Source: Daphnia pulex (taxonomy: Eukaryota; Arthropoda; Branchiopoda; Diplostraca; Daphniidae). Taken from it: a DNA stretch of 64,000 bases. The first letter of the stretch is position 1; each line of letters starts with the position of its first letter. The notes below the pieces were generated by a model. That model ran no database searches. It saw nothing but the letters and a program-made list of their open reading frames with translations, and was not told the origin of the DNA. The stretch covers positions 3,906,001-3,970,000 of the forward strand of contig NC_060017.1 of assembly GCF_021134715.1 (NCBI RefSeq), read 5' to 3'. Of this stretch, positions 17,137 through 49,500 are shown in pieces. The translations under genes were made by a program, and so were the position numbers.

Positions 17137-19592
17137 TCCAGTCGAGCGTTTCCTATCATCAAAAAGCCACTGATCACCACAAGTTGAACTTTGTTGTTTA
17201 GTCTCTCCTAGTTGTTTTCTTCTCACGATCGACTAATTGCAATCGAGTGGGCGTGGTGTGTTTTAATTCAATCGACACATTTTTATGTTTCAGATTATCT
17301 CTTCTTTTTCTCATCCAGCTCTTTTTCTATATACTTTCTATATACTCTCCTTCTTTCTATTACTACAAGACAAATTTCTATGTATAGAATGCCTCTGATT
17401 TTTGTACACCAATTTTTGATGGAAATCCCTGAATTACCTTGAGCGTTTGTACATGCGTGTGCAATAGGAAATGATCTTATAACCAGTGCAGAGCTATAGG
17501 AAAGTAACGATTAAATAAGTGTGTCACAGGCCGAACGATTCAATTCACTTTTGGCCTTGAGTGCTGTGTGTGTGCTGTTGTGCAACGTGTATAACTAGTG
17601 CGCACAGCGTCGCCAAACACGCGAGATTGATCCTACTATATTTCGACTCGATGACGTGCACTGTTCGGCGTACGTGGTTCGTTCTCTGACTCCTAGAGTG
17701 AATTCATTTTATTCTCTTCTCGCCTTATAATATCTTTGTGCTCTGTTATATTATCATGTTATTATGAATTATGGATTTTTCTTTTTCCGGTTTTCTCATT
17801 ATATGTTGGTTATTAATTATATGCGGTCCGTTCATCAGGTGTCAATGCTCGGGCTGTGATTTTTTTCTATCTCCATACATTTACATTTCTGCCCCATTCC
17901 CCGTTCGTTGTTCCCTGCTGGTTTTCATGCTGCCGTTTCCATCGATTTTCATTCGAACACCACCAAAACTATCTGAAAAATGTTTTTTTCGCGCGAAATT
18001 TAAATGTTGTTACATTTGAATTCAGTTCCGTCTTTATATTTTAATTTTGTATATCGTTATCAACCTCACTGAATGACGACGGGTTCGAACTCTTTCATTG
18101 ATTATTATTATATGAAATTCTATATTTTCTCAGTTGGACTTATTATATATTGCCCTAATCCAATGTGAAATACCAGTCCCATGTAACTGACGCGGCGCAC
18201 TATATTTTAGCTTCACCTAACATGTATGATTCGTTCAGTTCGTGTGCATCTTTTTTGTTTTTGGTAAAATTTCTATGTAATGTGCCTTTTGAAATGTACG
18301 GCCATTTTATTATCTCTCCCCCCACAAAAAAAAACGAAAAAAAAATTAAAAAAGAAAAAAAAACGAATAAAGTCAAAAATACAAAAAAAAATTACAAATT
18401 ACTCATTCAAATTTAAAATTATGATTTAGAGATTTGTATTCGAAATCAGACTTCAAACGTGTACACTTGTATCATTTTTTTTGTCCTTGAAATGTTTAGA
18501 AAAATGGTGAAAAAAGGATAAACATTTGATGTGTGATGGAATGAATGACGCAAGTGCTTTTGTTCTACATAATTGTGTGGGGTGGTTATACTTGTAAAGT
18601 TTGTTATTAGTTATATTAATTACATGAAGAACACCTGTTATTACAACTACATTTTTGTCATGAGGGGACGATGATTAAAAGGGGGTACATTTAAAAATGG
18701 GATAGGGACACTCGTTTACATGATATGATGCTGTACACGTGAAATCGTATATGTAGAACATATGTTTTGGAAGGGGGGAGAGAGAGAGAGAAAAGGACGT
18801 TGTGTAATATTTCAGGTGTGTCCGGGGTTAGGGGAGCTAGGGGATTTGACTGCGGCTCTTTTATTTGTCTCTTCGTTAGCCGCGTGCGTCGGTGTTATTT
18901 GTTTGTTTCTTTTTGTTTCTTCTCAAAATACGAATACAAATATATATATTTAATGTTTTGTTTTTTGTTTTTGTTTTTTTTTTGAGGGGGGGTAATACGA
19001 AATTTTGGGGGCACAACGTAAGGGGAGAAAGTCTTGAATGAGGTCACACGCAATATGAATTACAGTTTACACACAGGAGAACGGGACTGAAGCGCAATAG
19101 TATAAGAGAGACTTACACAAGAATCATGAAAAGCAATGTCGCAATGGCGTTAATAAGGGGATATGACTAATATTATGCAATATATACTAAGACAGACTTG
19201 AGATCCTTGTGAACGTGGCGATCAGTTGGCATTGATTCTCTTTTGTTTTTATCGGACACGGACTGGGAAAGTGGAAATGTCGAAAGAAGAAATGGGGTAA
19301 AAAGGGTCGATGCTGGGTGTCATGAACGCTATACATATTTTATGCTAATTTGATAAGAAATCTATTAAGCGCTTTGTATCTGATTTTCCCCCTCTCACAC
19401 CTCTTTCGCAAAACACGAGAGATATATTTTAATTAATCACTGACAATAATTAAATAATCGCAGGCGATCCCAGACTGAATGAAACACATGAAACTGTAAC
19501 CCGAAAAAACAAACAAAAAGAAAATGGCAATTTCGACTGGAATCGGTATAAAACCAACGTTGAGAATAATTGTCCGCACTCACTACACTTAA
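17137..19592. other. 3' UTR and intergenic, AT-rich
   Basis: Downstream of the carrier stop the DNA is T-rich and contains poly(A) signals on the plus strand (ATTAAA near 17509; AATAAA at 18366-18371 followed by A-rich sequence), so the 3' UTR may reach 17.5 or 18.4 kb. Nothing coding was accepted. The convergent zinc-finger gene ends from the right, and its 3' UTR probably occupies the far end of this interval. Confidence 0.5.
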
Positions 19593-20479
19593 TGACTAGA
19601 TGGCACTCACGAAATCCGGCGGGAGCGAAAGCTATTTTGAAATAACTATCCGCGACGACAAGGGAAATCAGCAAAGTGAATATCTCGAGGTGTAACTCGT
19701 TGCAGAAATTCAAAGAAAAACCAAAAATCGAGTACAAGATAAAAAATAACTTAAAAACACACTTACATATATATATTATAATGACTTGGAGGCAATGACT
19801 TGTGTATAATTGAAGAAAAATAGTTGAAAGACTGAACGCTTGAAGCGCTAAATTATACTAGACAACCTAGCGCTTATTTCATCCATTTTGTTAAAGCTGA
19901 TTTTACCAAATTTATATTAAGACAATTTGACTTTGACATCGAATATAATCTACTGTGATCGATAAATAAATTATGTTTTTTTTTAATAAATAGAGATATG
20001 ATATATTATATTATATAAATAAATGATTTTGAATCAAGTTTTCTCAATATAGTTACTTATTAGCTAACGATTATCAAGGTTGGATTGCCGATTTTTGCAT
20101 ACTGCTAATTGCCACCGATCGGCCTGACGACTAGATTTCCCATCGGGGAAATGTAGTGGAAACATGTGAAACACTTTGACTAACTCTACCAAAAATAATG
20201 ACAAAGGAATGTATAGACCAATCAAAAAAAGGGACTAGCACTGACTGACTGACAAGTCTGATTAGATTCGACAATAAGGAACGACTAGTCCTGAAATAAT
20301 GACTGGGACACACAAGTGACTAGAACACGTACTCATCCACCCATAATTAAACGAAGCTGATTCAACTTCTTATATATCATATGGTAATTCAAACGGGGTC
20401 AAAATGAAAACACACGAAAAGACTAGCGAAATAAGACTAGAGAGAAACCAAAAAATAAGATAAAATGACACACGACTAG
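19593..20479 (-). promoter_or_regulatory. Cluster of eight miR-279-family seed sites in the zinc-finger 3' UTR
   Basis: On the transcript (minus) strand CTAGTC occurs eight times downstream of the stop codon. On the plus strand GACTAG starts at 19594, 20129, 20233, 20283, 20318, 20421, 20435 and 20474. Two are full 8-mers (TGACTAGA on +: 19593, 20317) and three more extend to GACTAGA (20129, 20435, 20474). The reverse complement is the shared seed of miR-279/286/996. The count is direct; transcription of the whole stretch as 3' UTR is inferred from its position next to the stop codon. Confidence 0.7.
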
Positions 20480-20491
20480 ATTTAAAAATAA

Positions 20492-22813
20492 TTACGTGGC
20501 TCCGGCTCTTAGCTGAGGCATCTGCAAGACGTGCATCTTGTCGTCGGAATTGACGGGCGTCATGACGCCACCGACGGGCGAAATGGGTGACGGTGACGAC
20601 ACGTGATGGTGCATGAAACCGCCGTAAGGTGAAGTCGATGACGAAGATGATGACGACGAGGAAGAAGAAGAAGAAGAAGATGTGGGCGACGATGTGGTCG
20701 ACGACGATTTGTTGGAGTGGCTGAAATCTTGTACAACTCCGCCGGAACCGAAATTGTAGTTGGGCATCAATAGCGACGAGCCGGAGAAAACCGCCGGATG
20801 GAAAGCGGATCGAACTGCTGCCGGGACGAAACTGGCCGACGGACCCAGATGAGTCGAGTTATTGGCAGCTACTGCCGGCCAAGGTGGCGAGGGCTTTTCC
20901 TGGTTGTTGTTGTTGGTCATTCCGGCGGTGGTGGTGACGCCACCGGCGGACGCCATGGCCGATTTATTGGCGCCCTTGGCCGACAGGGAATTGGCCGGCC
21001 TGGGCTTGTGCCAGCGCCGATGGGAAGCCAAATTGGCCGGGCAGTTGAAGACTTTGTCGCATTCCGGGCAGCGGTACTCGACGTGAACGATGCGCGGGCA
21101 GCGATGCTGGGCCAAGCCGAAGGCGTCGTCAAAGACAACTCGACACAGGCGGCAGAGGTAGTCGCCGATGCGGTTGTCGATTTTGGCCAGCTCGGCCCGC
21201 GCCTCCTCCGTCACCTCGACAATGTTGAAGGCCGGATCGATGTCGCCGGGACGGACCACCAGGCCGTCTTCTCCCGGTACCATGGCCGGCATGTCGGCAG
21301 CGTCTCGGATGATGGTGCCCGAAACGGGCGAGATGAGCTCGTCGTCGAACGTCAACCGACGGACAGCTTTGCTGGACTTTTTACTGGCGCTGCCCGTCAG
21401 TCCTTTGGCCTTTTTGGCGCTGGCCGAATAGGAAGATGGTCCGTCTTCGACGCCATTCGTCGCTCCCGCGGTGGAAGGTGCCGATCGTTTTTTAGCTGCG
21501 GAGGAATTGCCGACGGAACGGACCGATTTGGATTGGCTGGGCAATGGGTGGAAGACATCAGGCCGGCCATGTTGAGGTGATAATAGGAGCGAGTCGGTGC
21601 TGGCCGACGTCGTTCCAGCTGCCGATTTCAGACTGAGATCCAGCAACAATCCGTTCTCGTTTGATTGCTGCTGTTGTTTGGGTGGTTGCTGTTGGTTGCG
21701 GTGGTAGAGGACGGGCGACGGCGGCTGCCATGTAGCCGACGCCGTCTGTTGTTGTTGACCGACGGCCTGTTCCAGCTGCTCCGACTGCGGCTTGGGAGTG
21801 AGCATGAGCGGGCTGACAGGTGAAGGGCACTGAGTGATGATACTGGGCACGAGCAGAGAGGCCAAGTGCGGGTACAGATGCGAGGGGTGATGAAGGGCCA
21901 GGTGGTGGTGGTGCCCTGACGGCTGCTGGTTGTGACCGCCAGGTGGCGCTGATGGCACTCCTGTCGACGCCTGATGATGCAACGACGCCGCTGGCTGGTG
22001 ACTGGGCTGTTGCTGCTGCTGATGAAGATGATGCAGGCTGGCCAGAGGTAAATACAACGGATGGTGGTGGTGATGGGCTTCGAGATTTTCACCTGGAGCG
22101 ACGGCCACGGCAGCAGCGGCGGCCACGGCGGCGGCGTTGAGCGTCGTCATGAGCGCCGAGCGCTGCTGGTACCAGCGGAGCGCCGCCTCCAAGCAAAGGG
22201 CGGAAGACCTGGTTGAATTTACAGGAGTCGCTTCTTCCGGTCGACTACTACCGCCGGCAGCAGCAGCACCTCCGGAAGTAGGTGAACCACCGGAAATGGC
22301 CGCATCAGGTGTCGGAAAAAGAAGCGACGGAGGAGAAGAATCCCCACAGTAGAAGGGTCCGCGACCTTTACCAACCTTTGCCGATGGTTGCGTCAGACTA
22401 GTCACAGTCGGCAAGTCCTGCGGCAGCGCATCCGCCGCTTTCACGCCGGAAGTCGGAGGAGAAGGCGACGTTTCGGGCAGGGCTGGACGCCACACCTTGG
22501 CGCTCATCAGTCGACCCTGACGTCGGAGTTGTTCCTTATCTCTGCCGGACGCTGGATGCTGGATGGGGAGAGCGGCCGGCATCAGAGACGGAGGAGGACC
22601 GGTGACCTCAACGGCCAGGTACGTCGTCGACGTCGAGCGACGGCTGGATGTCAAATCCAGCGGATCTTGTTCACCCTCTTCCGGCGTGTCTTCGCCTTCC
22701 TCTTCGTCCAGCTGGTGGTGGCCGGCGTACTGGCCGGAATCGACATTCTCACCACCACCGCCGACCACCGAAAACAATTCGTCGTGACGTTTGACTAGAA
22801 ATCCTCGCGGCAT
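20492..22813 (-). CDS. INSM/nerfin-type SNAG zinc-finger transcription factor
   Basis: Nuclear repressor of the insulinoma-associated/nerfin family, which acts in early neuronal and neuroendocrine differentiation. The start at 22813 is chosen because it places the SNAG repression motif PRGFLVKR at the extreme N-terminus; the frame is open for 17 more codons upstream. The 773-residue protein is intronless, as INSM genes usually are. The middle is low-complexity: His/Gln/Pro/Ala-rich runs and Ser repeats. The zinc-finger block lies near plus positions 21010-21180. It has a C2HC finger (YLCRLCRVVFDDAFGLAQHR) followed by IVHVEYRCPECDKVF and NCPANLASHRRWHKPRP, the strongest family signature. Only these two fingers are present; after them come about 160 Ser/Pro/Asn-rich residues and a stop. 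Other members have three to five fingers. Flanks are packed with miR-279 seed matches. Confidence 0.88.
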   Translation of the reverse strand: MPRGFLVKRHDELFSVVGGGGENVDSGQYAGHHQLDEEEGEDTPEEGEQDPLDLTSSRRSTSTTYLAVEVTGPPPSLMPAALPIQHPASGRDKEQLRRQGRLMSAKVWRPALPETSPSPPTSGVKAADALPQDLPTVTSLTQPSAKVGKGRGPFYCGDSSPPSLLFPTPDAAISGGSPTSGGAAAAGGSSRPEEATPVNSTRSSALCLEAALRWYQQRSALMTTLNAAAVAAAAAVAVAPGENLEAHHHHHPLYLPLASLHHLHQQQQQPSHQPAASLHHQASTGVPSAPPGGHNQQPSGHHHHLALHHPSHLYPHLASLLVPSIITQCPSPVSPLMLTPKPQSEQLEQAVGQQQQTASATWQPPSPVLYHRNQQQPPKQQQQSNENGLLLDLSLKSAAGTTSASTDSLLLSPQHGRPDVFHPLPSQSKSVRSVGNSSAAKKRSAPSTAGATNGVEDGPSSYSASAKKAKGLTGSASKKSSKAVRRLTFDDELISPVSGTIIRDAADMPAMVPGEDGLVVRPGDIDPAFNIVEVTEEARAELAKIDNRIGDYLCRLCRVVFDDAFGLAQHRCPRIVHVEYRCPECDKVFNCPANLASHRRWHKPRPANSLSAKGANKSAMASAGGVTTTAGMTNNNNQEKPSPPWPAVAANNSTHLGPSASFVPAAVRSAFHPAVFSGSSLLMPNYNFGSGGVVQDFSHSNKSSSTTSSPTSSSSSSSSSSSSSSSTSPYGGFMHHHVSSPSPISPVGGVMTPVNSDDKMHVLQMPQLRAGAT

Positions 22814-23160
22814 TTCTTCCGGAATTTTTGTTTTTGTTTTTCCGGTTGACCCGCCAAAATTCAAATGACTAGAATTTCCCGCAAAGCTTCGAATTTTGAC
22901 TAGATGAATCGAGTTTTGCGTTGGTGACTAGGATGTGACTAGGATTTTCAAGATGGGGACCATAAAAATGACTAGGAAAACATGGGACTAGTAAAGAATA
23001 AGACGATGACTGGTGGTGATGTTGACTAGATGTCGGCGATTGACGACAGGTGAGACTAGTTTTGAATTGATGACTTAAAGTTGACTAGAGTTGATTTAGA
23101 TGACTAGACTAGACGAGAGATACGACAAACAGATAGACACTGCCAAATGTTTCAGACTAG
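22793..23160 (-). promoter_or_regulatory. Dense 5' cluster of 13 miR-279-family seed sites
   Basis: Thirteen GACTAG words (plus strand) fall in 368 bp. They start at 22793 (inside the SNAG codons), then 22867, 22898, 22926, 22937, 22970, 22986, 23024, 23054, 23083, 23102, 23107 and 23155. Six are complete TGACTAGA 8-mers. All face the same way, giving CUAGUC(A) in the zinc-finger transcript. About 0.1 copy would be expected by chance in this length. The stretch may be 5' UTR; however, a good donor (GTAAGT, first base 23282 on the minus strand) lies just upstream, so part of it could be intronic. Each CTAG also resembles a 3' splice site. Confidence 0.65.
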
Positions 23161-26100
23161 AATTTGAAGTTGTTGACTTGATGGTCGACACACACACCAA
23201 ACAGAAACCTAATCACGAGAATAAAACTTCATAAATATATGCGTGTTGCGCATTAGATGATGATAATAAATGAGAGACTTACATATTTGGAATTCACATT
23301 TTAGGTCCGAGGCGATGGCGCCCGGGGATGAATGGCCAAAACACTTTTCCCCTCTTGATTTGATTTGATTGAATTAAGATGGTTTCGAATTGGATGGAAG
23401 AGACGAAGGATCGCCAGAGCGCGCACGACGAGATCTGAGAGCCGACTGACTAACGTCCAAGAGTTGGCTGGCCTTTTTGAGCCGGACGACGGGCATCCCA
23501 TCAGAGTGCCGCGATGTCAAGGTGTGCTGTGCTTCCCCTCCTCCTATTTTTTTTTTTTTTTATTAACCCCCCCTACCACCTCTACCACCCTGAGGCGAAA
23601 TGCTCCTGCGGGTGCAGCCGGAGAAGAGTCTGTCAAGGGCGGGGCGATAGAGACGCCGGATCCCACCTTTTGTTGGGCGACGTCGTTCCTACTCTGTACC
23701 CTCCTCCAAGCCTCATGCCTACGCCACCCACCACCCACCGACTCCCTTCGCCTGTCGGTCGCCACAGAGAGAGAGTGTCTCTATACGCGTGCACATGTCA
23801 GCATTTGGACTGTCCTGATTGGCGCTGCTCCGCCATCCAATCGAAAAGTAGGGATGTCGACGCTTGCAGCCGCCGCCCGTACACCCCCACCATTTTCACC
23901 GGCGTCGTGCGGCTGCAGAGCCTCTCCCGCACCTAGCAACCGACGCCGGATAACCAACAGAGGAGGAAAAATATAAGCATCAGCTGATCAATCGAGACAT
24001 TTTCTTGTATACGGAGGAAATAACTCGACACTCGTTCAATTCCTCCACCGATATTCATCGATTTATTTAAAAAATAAAACGATTGATAATTTCCGCATTA
24101 AAATTCAAATTGAATTTTTGTTTTTGTAAAAAGCGATTACAGCGCCCGATGATGTTAATAATCAAAATGGAAAATTGAACCAGAAAAGAGGAGGGGAAAT
24201 GTGTGTTGCTGACTCATTCTCCCCCCACCCACCGGCGTTCAACACACAAAAAACGAAAGATAATAGTGCGACACGAGCCACACACACACACGATAAGGGA
24301 GTGTGGACGAAAGCAAATATATATAAGCAGGGGAGGTGAATCAAAAAAGAAGCGATGATTCAACTACGCCCCCCTTCTCTATACTTTTTTGTGGGGGGGA
24401 TAAACTTAAAATATTCCCCCCCACCGACGCCACCGACGCTCATACCGACAGCCTGGCAACATGGCGTTACAGCGCTCGTTTTTTTTTTCTCTTCCATTCT
24501 CTTATCCATGTGGAAATACAAGACACACATTGTGTCTGTGGATGTCGACTGTATGTGTGCAGAAGAAGAGCAGATGTGAAGTCTGTCATGTGGGGGGACG
24601 TCGAGGGGTTCCCCCCTCTCTCTCCCTCCTTTTTGTGTGTGTCGTTGTTTGGGTGATCGCGTGCCCTCATCCTCCCGTTCAGAGAGAGAGGGGACTGAAG
24701 AATAAAGAAGGGGGGGGGGGGGATAGAGGGTTGATGGCGAGTGCCATGACAAAAGCCGCACAACAATCCACCCCTCTTACTGGATGGATGGATGGAAGGC
24801 CCTACACATCAGGCTTATATATATCCGGACCGCACATCGGAACACCGTTCAGATGTTCACGGCAGCACATTCACTCTCTTTTCATTCCACTGCTCTTATA
24901 AAAACGTCAAAAAGGAGAAAAAAGCCATGCAGCAGTAACCCCCCTCATCCATTCTATTCGGCCTCTAATAAACAGCGCACTGGGCATATATACACACGTT
25001 AATGGCGAAAACGTACATATAGTATACTGGATACACTATTCACTTGTAAAAAAAGAGGAAAACGTTGAAGAGGACTTTTGAATGAACGAGTGCTACGGTA
25101 TGATACTATATGTAGCTTGAATATGTATGTATGCATATGGTCGTGTCGACAACAGCTGCTCCTATTTGACGAAATAACAACACACATTCGCCGGCGGTTA
25201 TTTCATTTTTCCACATCCCAAAATAGAGAACTTCAGTAAAAATCTATTCTCTCCTAATCATGTACTCTTAATTGATTTCTCAATTGGATGATTTGACGAA
25301 CGGTTTCTATTAAATTATTTTGAATTTAGGAGCCGGTCTAAATTAGGAGCTATAATATGAGTGGCGTCTGGAGGCGTATTAAACAGCCCCCTTGGAAGAA
25401 AACCCCCCCATCCCAAGATTCTGTGGGGTGGACGGGAGAAACTTGAAAGGAAAGCGCCTCCCCTTTGCAGGAGCTCTCAAGGCGTTCGAACTCCTGTCTC
25501 CGCCAATGGGCGACAGGAGGGGGCTCCTGTGTGTGATGCTACGCGGCGCTATATCCTTCGGCATCCCGCCCGTCTTGCCTCGACCTTCTTTTTTCCTTGG
25601 AAGAACTCAATTCCGTCGAGTTGCGTCGTCATCCAATCGGCGAACGCGGCGGCGCGGCTCCCAAGGAGCTGCTGTACAAATCTTTAGGCGAATTCCGACG
25701 CAGGGTATTGGTCAGGAGCCTCTCTGATTCCATTATCACTCCGTTATTAAGTTCCTTTCGTCTGTCTAGAAATAGCTGGATTGGCTGCTGGATGTTACAA
25801 CAGCGTCTCCAAGGCGTCGGCATCTTGAGAGTTCCACCAGCGAATCCCGCCAAGGAGCCTTGGATGAATTCTATAACGTTGTGGATCGTTTCCATTGGTT
25901 CAACCGTTTGAATTTCAGATTTAATGAAGGGGCTGCTGAATTATCCGTTGGTGAACTAATAGAGGCTTAAACCAATATTTGATTGATGTCGGTTGAGGGA
26001 AACGAGCAGAATGCCGTTGGTCGGTCCGCAACGGTTTTCCACCCACCACCATCAACATCCATCGCAATAACAAAAGAAATAAACGGAAATAAAGCCCAGC

Positions 26101-40509: not shown

Positions 40510-43500
40510 TTATGTTTTCCTAGGTGGCGTGGGTGGCGGAGGGAAAAGTGGAGGTCCTTGAGTTCCCAGAGTCTTCCGCTCATTAAGTGGAACATTTTCG
40601 TAAAGCATTTTTGGGAATTCTTTCGGAGGCCTTGAAACAAATTCGTTTTTGCGGTGAGATTAGTTCATATTGTGCAAGTAACATTTTGCTTACATCGGAA
40701 TTGGATGCTCGGTTATGGTCCGACTAGGAACGCCTTTTGTTTCCTTATGAGGTTTCTCCGACTTGGATACTGTTACGTGAAAAGCACTTAGTAAAGGAGT
40801 AGAGACGCTAGCCAGCGACAGGGTTGATTTAGAGAGACTTTTGCCTGTTGGAGACTCTAATGGTTGCGACTGCGCACAAGTGGCAGGTGTCAACCCACCT
40901 TCCGTCGAATAGCGTATGTTGGTGTACTCCCTGCCAGCTTGAAGGCTCTTCTGTACATCAAATAACATGAGAAACCAAATTTTAAGAAATGCATCAAATA
41001 CAAATAAATGATACAACTCAACATACCTGCTGGGCTTGCATGCGCTGAGACAATGTCTCGATATAGTATTGAACTGCCATGTAAACAAATTTGTATTGAG
41101 CTTCGGTCTGTACCATACCGGATCTCTGAGCGCGGATAGTTTGAATCATCCGCTGAATATCAATTTCGCAATCCAAACCTAGTCACAAAAAAAAACATTT
41201 ATCGAATAAGAAAGCTTTTTTTTTGTGCCAAATTTGTATTTAAAAAGCACACAAAGTATACCTCTTCTTTCAATTTGTCCAATGATCATATCAATAACAA
41301 TGAACGTTCCAGTACGACCGATTCCCGCGCTGCAATGTACTATTACTGGGCCTGCATTAGCCGCAGAACTTTGCCTGGTATTCACATCATGAAGAAAGTT
41401 TAACACACAACCAGGATCGGCTGGTACTCCATGATCAGGCCACGCCTGTTTAAGTTTAAGAAAATAAAATTGTAGACATCACACAATGTTTTTTTTTTCT
41501 CAAGTCTACAACTTACTTGAAAATGATACTGATATATAAGCCTCTCTTCATTGTCCTTTGTTGCAACAAACTCCCGAAGGGTGTAATCCGCACGGAGTGA
41601 GTCACTGACACACCGTAATGAGACCTTACCGAATTCTTTCGATTGATTTTCTTCTGGCCAGTATCGCGCACATTTAGACTGAAATCAATTGCAGAAATGA
41701 ATAAAACAAATAGGAAATGAAAAATAAAATAAATAAAAAAAAGATCGAGTAGCGACATTTCTACCTTTCCTCTTTCGACTTCTTTTGTTGTCATGACAAT
41801 GACTCGACTATTTTCCTGCCACACCTAGAATAATACAATACAACGAAATATTATGCGTGATTGATTTTTTTCATTAAATTTCACTTTATTTATTCTTACC
41901 ATATGCCAGAAATCATTCACTGTATGGGGCAAACAGCCTTGAGTGGCTATGTATTGTGGAAATAGGTCTCCACTTCCATCGTCCTCAGGCTGTTGTTTAA
42001 ATTTGGTTCAGAATGATACATATTTGAAAACAATCAATGTTGCTGAAAAATTTAATTACCCGAATATGATTGGCGTTGATGTAATCAGCTCCAGCTACGC
42101 TAGTATCTACATCTTTGAGTAGAACACGGGTGTGGTCAACTAAAATAATTTAAAAAAGAAATTAGCATATTATTTTTTGGTACTTTCTTCCTTTCCAAAC
42201 AGTATAAACAACAATACATGGTAATATGTTTTTGTATCTATTCTTATTCCGATTTTCTGGTTTTTGTCCCTCCTTCCGGCTGTAAAGATGTTTACATTCT
42301 TGTTGCTGCAAGCTTTCAAATTCTTCCCAAAATCCTCCTTTTCCTGTACTAACGCTATGCTCTTTCTACAGAGGAAACAATTAAAAATACAGAAAGAAAG
42401 ATTTTAGACATTTCAGACAATAAATGAATAAAATAAAAAAAAAAAGCATTTGCTTGGCGGAGTTGTTACGAGTCCGGACATCAAGTAATTATTTTCACAA
42501 GTACTTGGGGTATTAAGTAAATAAGATCAATAATTATGGGTGTAAGTAATTTTTCTCTTAAGTAATTACGGAATTAAATAATAAAATTGATGAGTAATTA
42601 TTTTCTGTCAGCTAAGTAATTATGGTAGTAAGTAATACTGGCAACAAGTAATTTAGCTAACCAACACAAGTAATTCCCTTTTGCAAGTAAATAAATTCAC
42701 AAGTAATTAAAGCCATAAGTAATTCAAGTCCCAAGTAATTATGTTCTTAAGCATTTTAATTAAAAAGTTAGTCATATTTAATTGTTTATATTCCGTACTA
42801 GAATGAATAATTAATTATGATATTTATTATTTTGTATTTAGAGAATTATAGTGATGCTGCACAAAAAGGAAAAACCACATTTATTAATTGCGTACAAACT
42901 TTGTTGCATTTGCAGGTTTAAGAACGCACCTGGAAATTTCATCAACAGTTTCGCGTTGTCTGCTTGTCTGTTGTCTGCTTGTCAGTTTGTTTTTTCCAAA
43001 AGTCAGAGAAGAGTTAATTGCTGGTGAATTGTGTTTTGTAAATGTAATCAACTTACTTTGTTGTTATTGATTATAAAGGGAAGTATGTTGTTGGCTGCAC
43101 CAACTTAATGACTGGTGGACCCAGCAAGGAAGATGGTTGCTTTCTTCGAGTATACTATCCTAGTCAAATAAAAGATGTATATGTAAGCGACCTTTTCTCA
43201 AATTGCTGCTGAACTTTTGTGGTTAATCTATTTACCTCTTTTCTCCAAAGGAACATTCTTCCCGTTGGGCAAGCTGGCTCCTCCACCCAAAATACGTAGA
43301 AGATTACACCATAGTACTAGGAATGATTCCTTTCTTTGGCAAGAAGCTGATATCCTGGGCCTTTGGTGTGTAGCGAAATGAAGTACCTGTTTTTAACAGA
43401 AGGTTAAAGTCAACTAATTGTGATGTATGTGAGCCAGGAAATTCATACATTCCTATAGCGTTAGATGCTGAGCTATGCAATGAACAAAGATTTCCTGTAA

Positions 43501-46500: not shown

Positions 46501-49500
46501 TTTACTCCTTAAACCTTAAACAAAGATGTCAATTGCGGATCCGGGAAAATGTCGACAAATTGTGGCGGGTTGAAAACAGCGTCGGAGAAGTTACATTTTC
46601 TCCTGCTCAGTACATGTCGACGTACAGCACAGGTAAGATCTATCTTTGGAGGAACCGTCATATTGATCGATCTTCGTCGATCGGTAGTTCGGGACTGACA
46701 ATGTAACTGGCTCCACTTTTGCAATATGAACAATTCCTGCGGACAAACAAGTACATGTCCTTGTTAGTCGCGCAGCGCAATTTCGCGTTATTCTAAAAAT
46801 ACAAAAAGGAAATACATTTTCTTTAGCGATTCGCGAAAAGTGCCATTTTCGTCTGCCACATGCAAGAAAAGTTTGAGGGAATGACGAATTAATCAGCACA
46901 ACGCCCTTGTTGTCTATACTCAATGTCTACTACACTTTTATTGACCAACTTAGTTCTTTTTCTGAATTTGATATCGATTGAAGAAACGAAATAGATTTTC
47001 GCCTAAGGTGACATCAGAGTTGAATCGATCAATCAATCGGTCTAGACTTTTGCTTTGTCACAAAATCTTGGCTGATACCTGATATGTTCCAATTTGAAAA
47101 TGTTGGATTTTCTAATACGATTGGGACTTGGGAACTATAAATATTTGATGTGTGCAGATTGTGAAATCGGTCCAATAGGGTGGCACTGTATAAACAGCCA
47201 AGAAAGCTATGTGGCTGATCAACGTCTAAAAGTGTAAAACACATGGAATAATGAATACAAACCAGTTTATTTAATTACATTTTTCACATTCATAAAATTT
47301 GAAATATAGGAATGCTCTTTAACAGAAGAGGAACACAACAGGCACAATATTCAATATTATGAAATTTTCTGTTTTTCTTAATTATTGGGTATGACAAGCA
47401 TTTAAACATGACAAATGGAACTTCAAAATAGTTATAAATAAATGCGAATGTTGCAACGCTTACGCTAAGTGCAACAACCTTCGCAGTTTGGGATCTTAAA
47501 TTTCTGAATCCAGACCAAGGAGTCCAACGTTGAATCGCCGCTTTTTTATGTTTCCCTTGTAAAGCAGCCTTTCTCTGTTCCATTCTCCTTTTCCTCTCTT
47601 CGTCCTCTTCCTTTATCTTACGAATACTACAACAAGATGAAACATTAATGTCATTCAGGAAATATCAGCAGAAACTTAAATGCTTAAGATACTTTTCAGC
47701 GTGCATCTCTCGGACAACTGTTTCCATTACATCTGGTGGATAGGTTCGCATCAACTTTTCTGTTTCAGTAATAAGACTATCAAATGGTAGATTATCAGGG
47801 ACCTAAGATAAAACTGTAAGAACATTAATCGAAAAAGAGCTTATTAAAAAAATAGTACGTTGGAGAGCATTTGATGTAGAAGCGGCATCTCACACGGTGT
47901 CAAGAAAATATCACTTGCGCTATGCAACACGACGACAACAGATAGATACATAGAGGTCCATGGATGTGAGAACATAAATACATCAAACAATCTTACGACA
48001 GTTTCCTAATCGTTGAGAACATGGCCAAACCAAGTAATCGCCCACGGAAGGCAGAAAATTGTCCCTAGCTCCAACCTAGAATTAAAACAAGTTATTCAAA
48101 TTTTAAAGAGAATATTTCTCTTTTTTTTTTTAGGGGGGGGGGAGGGGTTTCAAATACCTCATCAAATAATTGTACAAATCACGATTTTCATTTTTGACTA
48201 GTGCATACATTTTCATTGTAGGCTCCATATCTGGTCCCATAAACAGTTGGAAATGTGATTGGGAAAGTCTGCATGACACACTGTGACTTTTCTCTTCTCC
48301 TAAAACAAGCAATAACAGTGTGATGGCAATATCGTGAAAACCCTGTGCATGGAAGCATAACAAATGTAAGAGGATCATCTTCGTAATTGAATTTTGCTAT
48401 AACCTGATAGTAATGGAGACCTTCATTTGCTATCAGAACTCTTATTATCAGCTCTGTGACTTTTACTTTGAGGTCTGCTTGAATATTTTCATTAATACCT
48501 AGGCGGATAACGAAATTTTAAGAATAGAAAATATACATAAAAGAAATATTATTGCTACCTGGAGGGAAGCATTCTAAAATTCATTTGACATCCAATACCA
48601 CCTGGTTGTAGTACTGATGAATGATAATGCTTAATCTCTTCTGATGATAAACTCCTGTTTCCTTTAACTGGTGTAACAATTTGATTCTTAATAAATAGAC
48701 AGAATAAACAAACATTTTTACACAAATGTTAACTTACATTTACTTATAAAGAAAGAAAATATGTTACCAAAGACAAAATATTTTTCACAAACAACGCCTA
48801 TTTTGACTTTTGAGCCTCAATTAACCAGCAATTAACTCTTGTCTGACTTTTGGAAAAAAACAAACTGACAAGTGACAAGCAGACAACTCGAAACTGTTGA
48901 TGTAATTTCCAGGCGCGTTCTTAAAACTGCAAACGCGTAAAAGTTTGTACGCAACCTGAGCCTACGCAATAACGCAATCAATAAATGACGTTTCACTTTA
49001 ATTCTCTAAATACAAAATAATAAAAGTGTTTACACCGTGTAAATACATAAGATAATAATTACTTAAGAAAATAGTTACTTGTGAGAATAATTACTTAAGA
49101 AAATAATTTCTTAAGAAAACAATTACTTAAGAATATAATTACTTAAGTCGTTGCTAGTGACTTACGAACAATTGTACTAATAGAACCTATTATTTGTGAA
49201 CATAATTTTAATTACTGGTGACCATAATTACTAGCGAGTATTTGACTAAATACACGTTGCATGAATTACTTAAAGCCCAAATTATTAAAAATTTTAAATA
49301 CAACAGTCCATAATTACTTAAGAACAAAAATACTTGTGTCCTTAATTTCAATAAAACAAAATTTTGAAAGAGCTTGATACCATATTTACTAGTGAAAATA
49401 ATTACTTGTATCCGGATCCCGTTGTTACCTGCAGTTCTTTAACGCGACTTTCAATTCCACTTGCATGAATTCTGGTTGCGTTGTAAGGCTGTTTTAAATG

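Follow-up and report, generated by a model that had tools for sequence, protein, structure and literature searches.

A dense, one-stranded set of miR-279-family seed matches in the INSM/nerfin locus of Daphnia pulex

Results

The window, by which we mean the whole 64-kb stretch of Daphnia pulex DNA analysed here, carries on its minus strand a gene (Table 1) whose product opens with the SNAG motif MPRGFLVKR, a motif that is likewise N-terminal in eight of the ten relatives that were aligned from the 22 relatives found. The C2H2 finger block YLCRLCR...HRRWHKP is common, with substitutions, to all 11 aligned rows, named INSM proteins included, and the nearest of the 22 relatives found come from D. 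sinensis (65% identity) and D. magna (62%). The sole Pfam match over the cut-off is one zf-met, at 22.6 versus 21.2 bits. Passages of an earlier description credit D. pulex with a single nerfin gene that has two conserved fingers and spans 2346 bases (PMC2889900), compared with a CDS of 2322 bases here. Judged by its sequence, the gene is a Daphnia relative of INSM/nerfin, and the SNAG motif, the finger block and the Daphnia relatives bear out what an earlier, sequence-only reading of this DNA had called an INSM/nerfin-type locus. In the 3' flank, a frame at window positions 19600-19560 (minus strand) reads KCSECGQLFSTL, which is vaguely finger-like, around the distal CTAGTC. We take this frame to be a product of chance, since the preceding ORF has the same kind of ending as the nerfin proteins of other Daphnia.

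Table 1. Features of the INSM/nerfin locus, in window positions.
Feature	Position	Strand	Basis
Possible transcription start, initiator-like TCAGTC	23447..23447	-	Motif match only (predicted)
Possible 74-base 5' UTR intron (GTAAGT ... TTAG), without CTAGTC	23209..23282	-	Motif match only (predicted)
Leader array: 12 CTAGTC, five of them 8-mers (TCTAGTCA)	22867..23160	-	Counts and shuffles
CDS of INSM/nerfin, 773 aa, MPRGFLVKR..., two C2H2 fingers	20492..22813	-	ORF, relatives, alignment
CTAGTC in the SNAG codons, in frame (Leu-Val of MPRGFLVKR), 8-mer site	22793..22798	-	Count and reading frame
CTAGTC in the CDS, out of frame, bare hexamer	22396..22401	-	Count and reading frame
3' array: seven CTAGTC, at most 363 bases past the stop codon, one an 8-mer	20129..20479	-	Counts and shuffles
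Distal 3' copy, 8-mer, 0.9 kb past the stop	19594..19599	-	Count and poly(A) motif positions

Between 19594 and 23160, the minus strand carries 22 copies of the hexamer CTAGTC, of which 12 precede the ATG at 22813, two fall within the CDS and eight follow it. Eight of these have a T before and an A after the hexamer and as such are 8-mer sites, five have the T only, three the A only, and six are bare hexamers. All numbers of the sequence-only reading that we checked (22 copies, eight 8-mers, five extended at m8 only and three at A1 only) hold, and our recount also agrees with its description of a single orientation, with two CDS copies (at 22793 and 22396) and the rest in the flanks. The plus strand of the same interval has two copies, both of which overlap copies on the minus strand (GACTAGTC at 20283-20290 and 22396-22403); the orientation of the copies speaks against strand-neutral DNA sites. 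Nor is the word equally frequent in unrelated local DNA, the remaining window holding 14 copies on both strands together. For the whole 64-kb window, both strands counted, this makes 38 copies, compared with a mean of 16.6 and a largest value of 31 in 100 shuffles.

Because two of the leader copies (23107 and 23102) share one base, no more than 21 of the 22 sites could be occupied simultaneously. The leader sites nearest to the ATG lie 54 and 85 bases upstream of it. The in-frame site within the SNAG codons uses CTA, the codon of four of the 62 leucines in the ORF. Past the stop codon, the first ATTAAA is found at 19987, and the motif positions of the next poly(A) signals are 19433, 18954 and 18865. 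The distal 3' copy lies beyond the ATTAAA at 19987 and would therefore be part of the mRNA only if a later signal is used.

At the 5' side, a transcription start at about 23447 and an intron at 23282-23209, both predicted at the level of motifs, would leave the array in a 5' UTR exon, and the 12 sites probably lie within the 5' UTR. Only two upstream ATGs occur in 22814-23210 (window 22963-22983, minus strand); these open short uORFs, both of which stop at the TAG within a CTAGTC site.

The abundance of the word was compared with 3000 dinucleotide shuffles each of the leader, the 3' flank and the CDS. In the leader (22814-23208), 12 copies stand against a shuffle mean of 0.15 and a maximum of 3, and in the 3' flank (19560-20491) eight copies against a mean of 0.24 and a maximum of 4, which rules out plain chance. 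The two copies of the CDS (shuffle mean 0.23, maximum 3) are, as a count on their own, within chance. Moreover, when each flank was compared on its own with the remaining window, CTAGTC came out as the top over-represented hexamer of the leader and also of the 3' flank. When the 64 kb were scanned in 400-base segments, just one further non-simple hexamer reached 12 copies, namely AAGTAA/TTACTT at 42401, where the copies are spaced 16 bases apart, as in a repeat. Arrays of AAGTAA(TT), with many copies 16 bases apart, were found at window positions 42483-42738 (plus strand) and about 49059-49402 (minus strand), in opposite orientation and some 6.5 kb from each other, and may represent the inverted ends of a mobile element.

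The hexamer itself is sharply delimited. Each of its single-base variants is found at most once in the leader and at most twice in the 3' flank. TAG triplets number 12 in the leader, every one of them inside CTAGTC, and 19 in the 3' flank, where CTAGTC accounts for eight. The directly adjacent bases are mildly enriched, with T at -1 in 13/22 and A at +1 in 11/22 copies, and both together in 8/22 (p ~0.001 relative to the flank composition), while no consistent flank beyond the hexamer is found among the copies. This sharp boundary and the lack of a consistent flank fit seed matches to UGACUAGA better than they fit a longer repeat. The 12 leader starts have no common period or distance either. 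Tandem Repeats Finder returned an exact 11-base tandem pair, containing two leader sites, and a weak 10-base array at 23079-23119; furthermore, two of the 3' sites have 12 bases in common. A decayed tandem repeat was rejected because of the missing period and the paucity of near-copies, the 11-base pair and the 12-base stretch being the exceptions. The sites, then, depart from randomness, keep to one strand and have sharp limits at the seed. Accessibility as computed with RNAplfold is no better for the sites than for the surrounding sequence (p 0.72 in the leader, 0.88 in the 3' flank), and pairing to the 3' part of the miRNA shows no excess over shuffled flanks for any of the five family members described below.

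The genome is not devoid of miR-279-family hairpins. A search of its 133 Mb with the Rfam model for mir-279 (RF00754) yielded five matches with E <= 0.001, one above the gathering cut-off with 59.1 bits and four below it with 36.8-47.2 bits. All five fold as hairpins and carry a putative 3'-arm miRNA that starts with TGACTAGA, matching the seed UGACUAGA, and one of them (L005) agrees with the miR-279b-3p sequenced in D. magna (PMC6828783). In that species, mir-279a-e are expressed in all three sequenced stages, and in juveniles the family sums to 91,557 normalized reads from whole animals (Table 2 of PMC6828783). Within the 64-kb window, Rfam gave no matches at the gathering score. From a panel of 25 seeds, the 24 that do not belong to mir-279 have no match in the leader.

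Across the genome, 43 places have triples of CTAGTC (three copies separated by gaps of 30 bases or less); six of these are the INSM leader, and the reversed hexamer that served as control forms 36. With 36 against 43, the total of triple places is not raised and this number proves nothing. Three other loci hold at least three triples: C2:9308544 and C2:10340664 are evenly spaced arrays, and C2:10637894, with seven 8-mers in 112 bases, is as dense as the INSM leader, yet repeat-like, as its sequence is common to copies on C3 and C12. The reversed hexamer has four loci with at least three triples, all of them tandem arrays. It is the combination of density and unrelated spacers that sets the INSM leader apart. 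Pairs of 8-mers occur at 31 places, compared with one for the reversed control; 20 of these fall in five repeat-like or duplicated loci, two in the INSM leader and nine elsewhere, and at least three of these nine are repeat-like as well (two are the same 19 letters, and one starts with 17 letters of the C2/C3/C12 repeat). Among the nine pair places and seven triple loci, judged mostly by site positions and open frames, with short stretches of three of them read, no second convincing target was found.

Two of the loci encountered in this comparison, L028:4972-7007 and L029:4963-6998, are near-identical and lie 43 kb apart on C8, each with eight plus-strand copies of CTAGTC, seven of them 8-mers, in two blocks. 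The C2/C3/C12 repeat, with its clustered copies of TCTAGTCA, was seen at L026:4896-5007, L027:4656-4750 and L030:4909-5003; if transcribed, it would carry miR-279 seed matches too.

Discussion

We consider it probable, at roughly 0.77, that the minus-strand gene is the Daphnia INSM/nerfin and that the miR-279 family directly targets its mRNA. The mRNA is taken as a direct target because the repeated word matches the seed of a family known to repress nerfin-1 in flies, and the link between the two was predictable in advance from the fly work. On the opposite side stand the accessibility and 3' pairing of the sites, which are unremarkable (both help a target but are not required of it), the four hairpins below the Rfam cut-off, the chance-level count in the CDS, the unraised genome-wide total of triples, the equally tight 8-mer clusters in repeats and the 11-base tandem pair in the leader. 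Loaded with any of the five family members, Argonaute would use the seed UGACUAGA to bind up to 21 compatible sites, spread over the 5' leader, the stretch encoding the SNAG motif and the 3' UTR. Those in the 3' UTR would bring about deadenylation and decay, as is usual for such sites, and the leader array, presumed to be transcribed and retained in the mature mRNA, would add repression near the start codon. The purpose of such an arrangement would likely be to silence nerfin, which is a neural-differentiation factor, in miR-279-expressing cells. The sequence-only reading had gone as far as to speak of a super-target, and with sites this exceptionally dense and counts this far above those of the shuffles, that term appears apt. 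Its suggestion that this lineage has amplified the link stands only in part, as nerfin-1 was already the best single-miRNA prediction for the miR-279 family in flies in 2005 (PMC1183519).

Could only the sites in the 3' UTR, and perhaps those in the CDS, be active? The leader array would then be located upstream of the real transcription start or within an intron, and the gene would be an ordinary target with multiple 3' UTR sites that happens to have an unrelated cluster upstream. The start and the intron of the leader are motif guesses, and CTAG, which ends in AG, could pass for a 3' splice site; indeed, CTAGTC copies make up 12 of the 19 acceptor-like AGs listed for 22800-23480. Conversely, the top hexamer is the same on both sides of the CDS and confined to the transcript strand, which would be difficult to understand were the leader copies outside the RNA of the same gene, and the last leader sites approach the ATG to within 54 and 85 bases. 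We therefore regard this alternative as unlikely, although it is the strongest of those that we weighed.

Musashi-type RNA-binding proteins recognize motifs with a UAG core. Such a protein, instead of a microRNA, could read the copies in what is a neural gene, as UAGU is present in each of them and the sequence outside the hexamer varies almost freely. A loose UAG motif, however, would not fit what is seen: both outer C's are fixed, the leader has no TAG outside of CTAGTC, and single-base variants are rare; moreover, the exact word is the seed match of the very family that targets this gene in flies. This makes recognition by a UAG-binding protein quite improbable. Slightly less probable still is a homotypic enhancer cluster, in which the copies would be sites for a transcription factor at the level of DNA. 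The cluster near the promoter is dense and irregular enough for that, but the copies are distributed 22 versus 2 over the strands, with both of the two overlapping palindromic copies, and they go on past the stop codon.

The remnant of a decayed tandem repeat or mobile element is harder yet to credit. It could account for the 11-base tandem pair, the weak array at 23079-23119 and the 12 bases common to two 3' copies, and the other dense CTAGTC clusters in the genome are repeats. Yet the leader lacks a period and a consistent flank, near-copies are few, and the clusters flank an intact CDS on both sides. The least probable of all is that the transcript serves as a sponge that titrates miR-279, as had also been proposed in the sequence-only reading: up to 21 jointly usable sites per mRNA would suit a sponge, but they surround an intact and conserved CDS, and the abundance of the mir-279 family in whole D. 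magna, with five members in all three stages, makes titration by the mRNA of one transcription factor unlikely, leaving this proposal without support.

If the nerfin mRNA is a direct miR-279 target, how would the leader contribute? It is conceivable, though in our view doubtful, that it functions as a natural landing array for Argonaute, its 12 seed sites, the one in the SNAG codons and the array in the 3' UTR jointly switching nerfin translation in a nearly all-or-none manner. Should the leader be part of the mRNA, it would be a natural 5' UTR with an unusually dense array of sites for one miRNA seed, within a gene that has already been shown to be repressed by the same miRNA in flies. If true, this would provide a natural test of how strongly 5' UTR sites repress and of how the number of sites relates to the sharpness of a switch, as well as of site turnover while an old regulatory link persists; furthermore, it would make the age of the link between miR-279 and nerfin testable in a crustacean. 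The combination of a 12-site array in a probable 5' UTR with a site in the SNAG codons appears to be new. No literature was found on nerfin-1 in conjunction with microRNA and 5' UTR, nor on nerfin-1 with 'miR-279 sites' or on miR-279 with super-target, and in the passages of the papers cited here a layout involving both UTRs is not described for fly nerfin-1.

Natural miRNA sponges carry many sites, such as those for miR-7 in CDR1as. The Daphnia transcript is similar in having many seed sites for one miRNA, but differs in being a conserved protein-coding mRNA. As for the position of the sites, a review states, citing Lytle et al. 2007, that miRNAs can repress through sites in 5' UTRs (PMC3565276). 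This is in line with a repressive leader, even though that statement is a general, experimental one, whereas in Daphnia it would concern a natural leader with 12 sites for one seed. In Tribolium, as is proposed here for Daphnia, nerfin-1 is among the predicted conserved targets of miR-279; there it is a prediction on UTRs, and neither the number of sites nor an array is given in the passages of PMC6961396. The passages found in the literature on egl-46 and mir-44 report no link between these two.

The closest parallel is that of miR-279/996 and nerfin-1 in Drosophila, which involves the same gene family, miRNA family and seed, with several sites of the same word per gene; on the Daphnia side stand the five family hairpins. 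One tool gave three miR-279 sites in fly nerfin-1 (PMC1180435), loss of mir-279/996 strongly raises nerfin-1 in heads (PMC4456407), and miR-279 degrades a reporter with the nerfin-1 3' UTR via CCR4-NOT (PMC3510486). In the larval brain, glia have high levels of miR-279/996, neuroblasts lower ones and neurons hardly any, and Nerfin-1 acts in maturing neurons (PMC12064045), so that the pair fits mutual exclusion. While the fly work, in the passages cited, concerns sites in the 3' UTR, 12 of the 22 sites in Daphnia precede the ATG and one lies in the SNAG codons.
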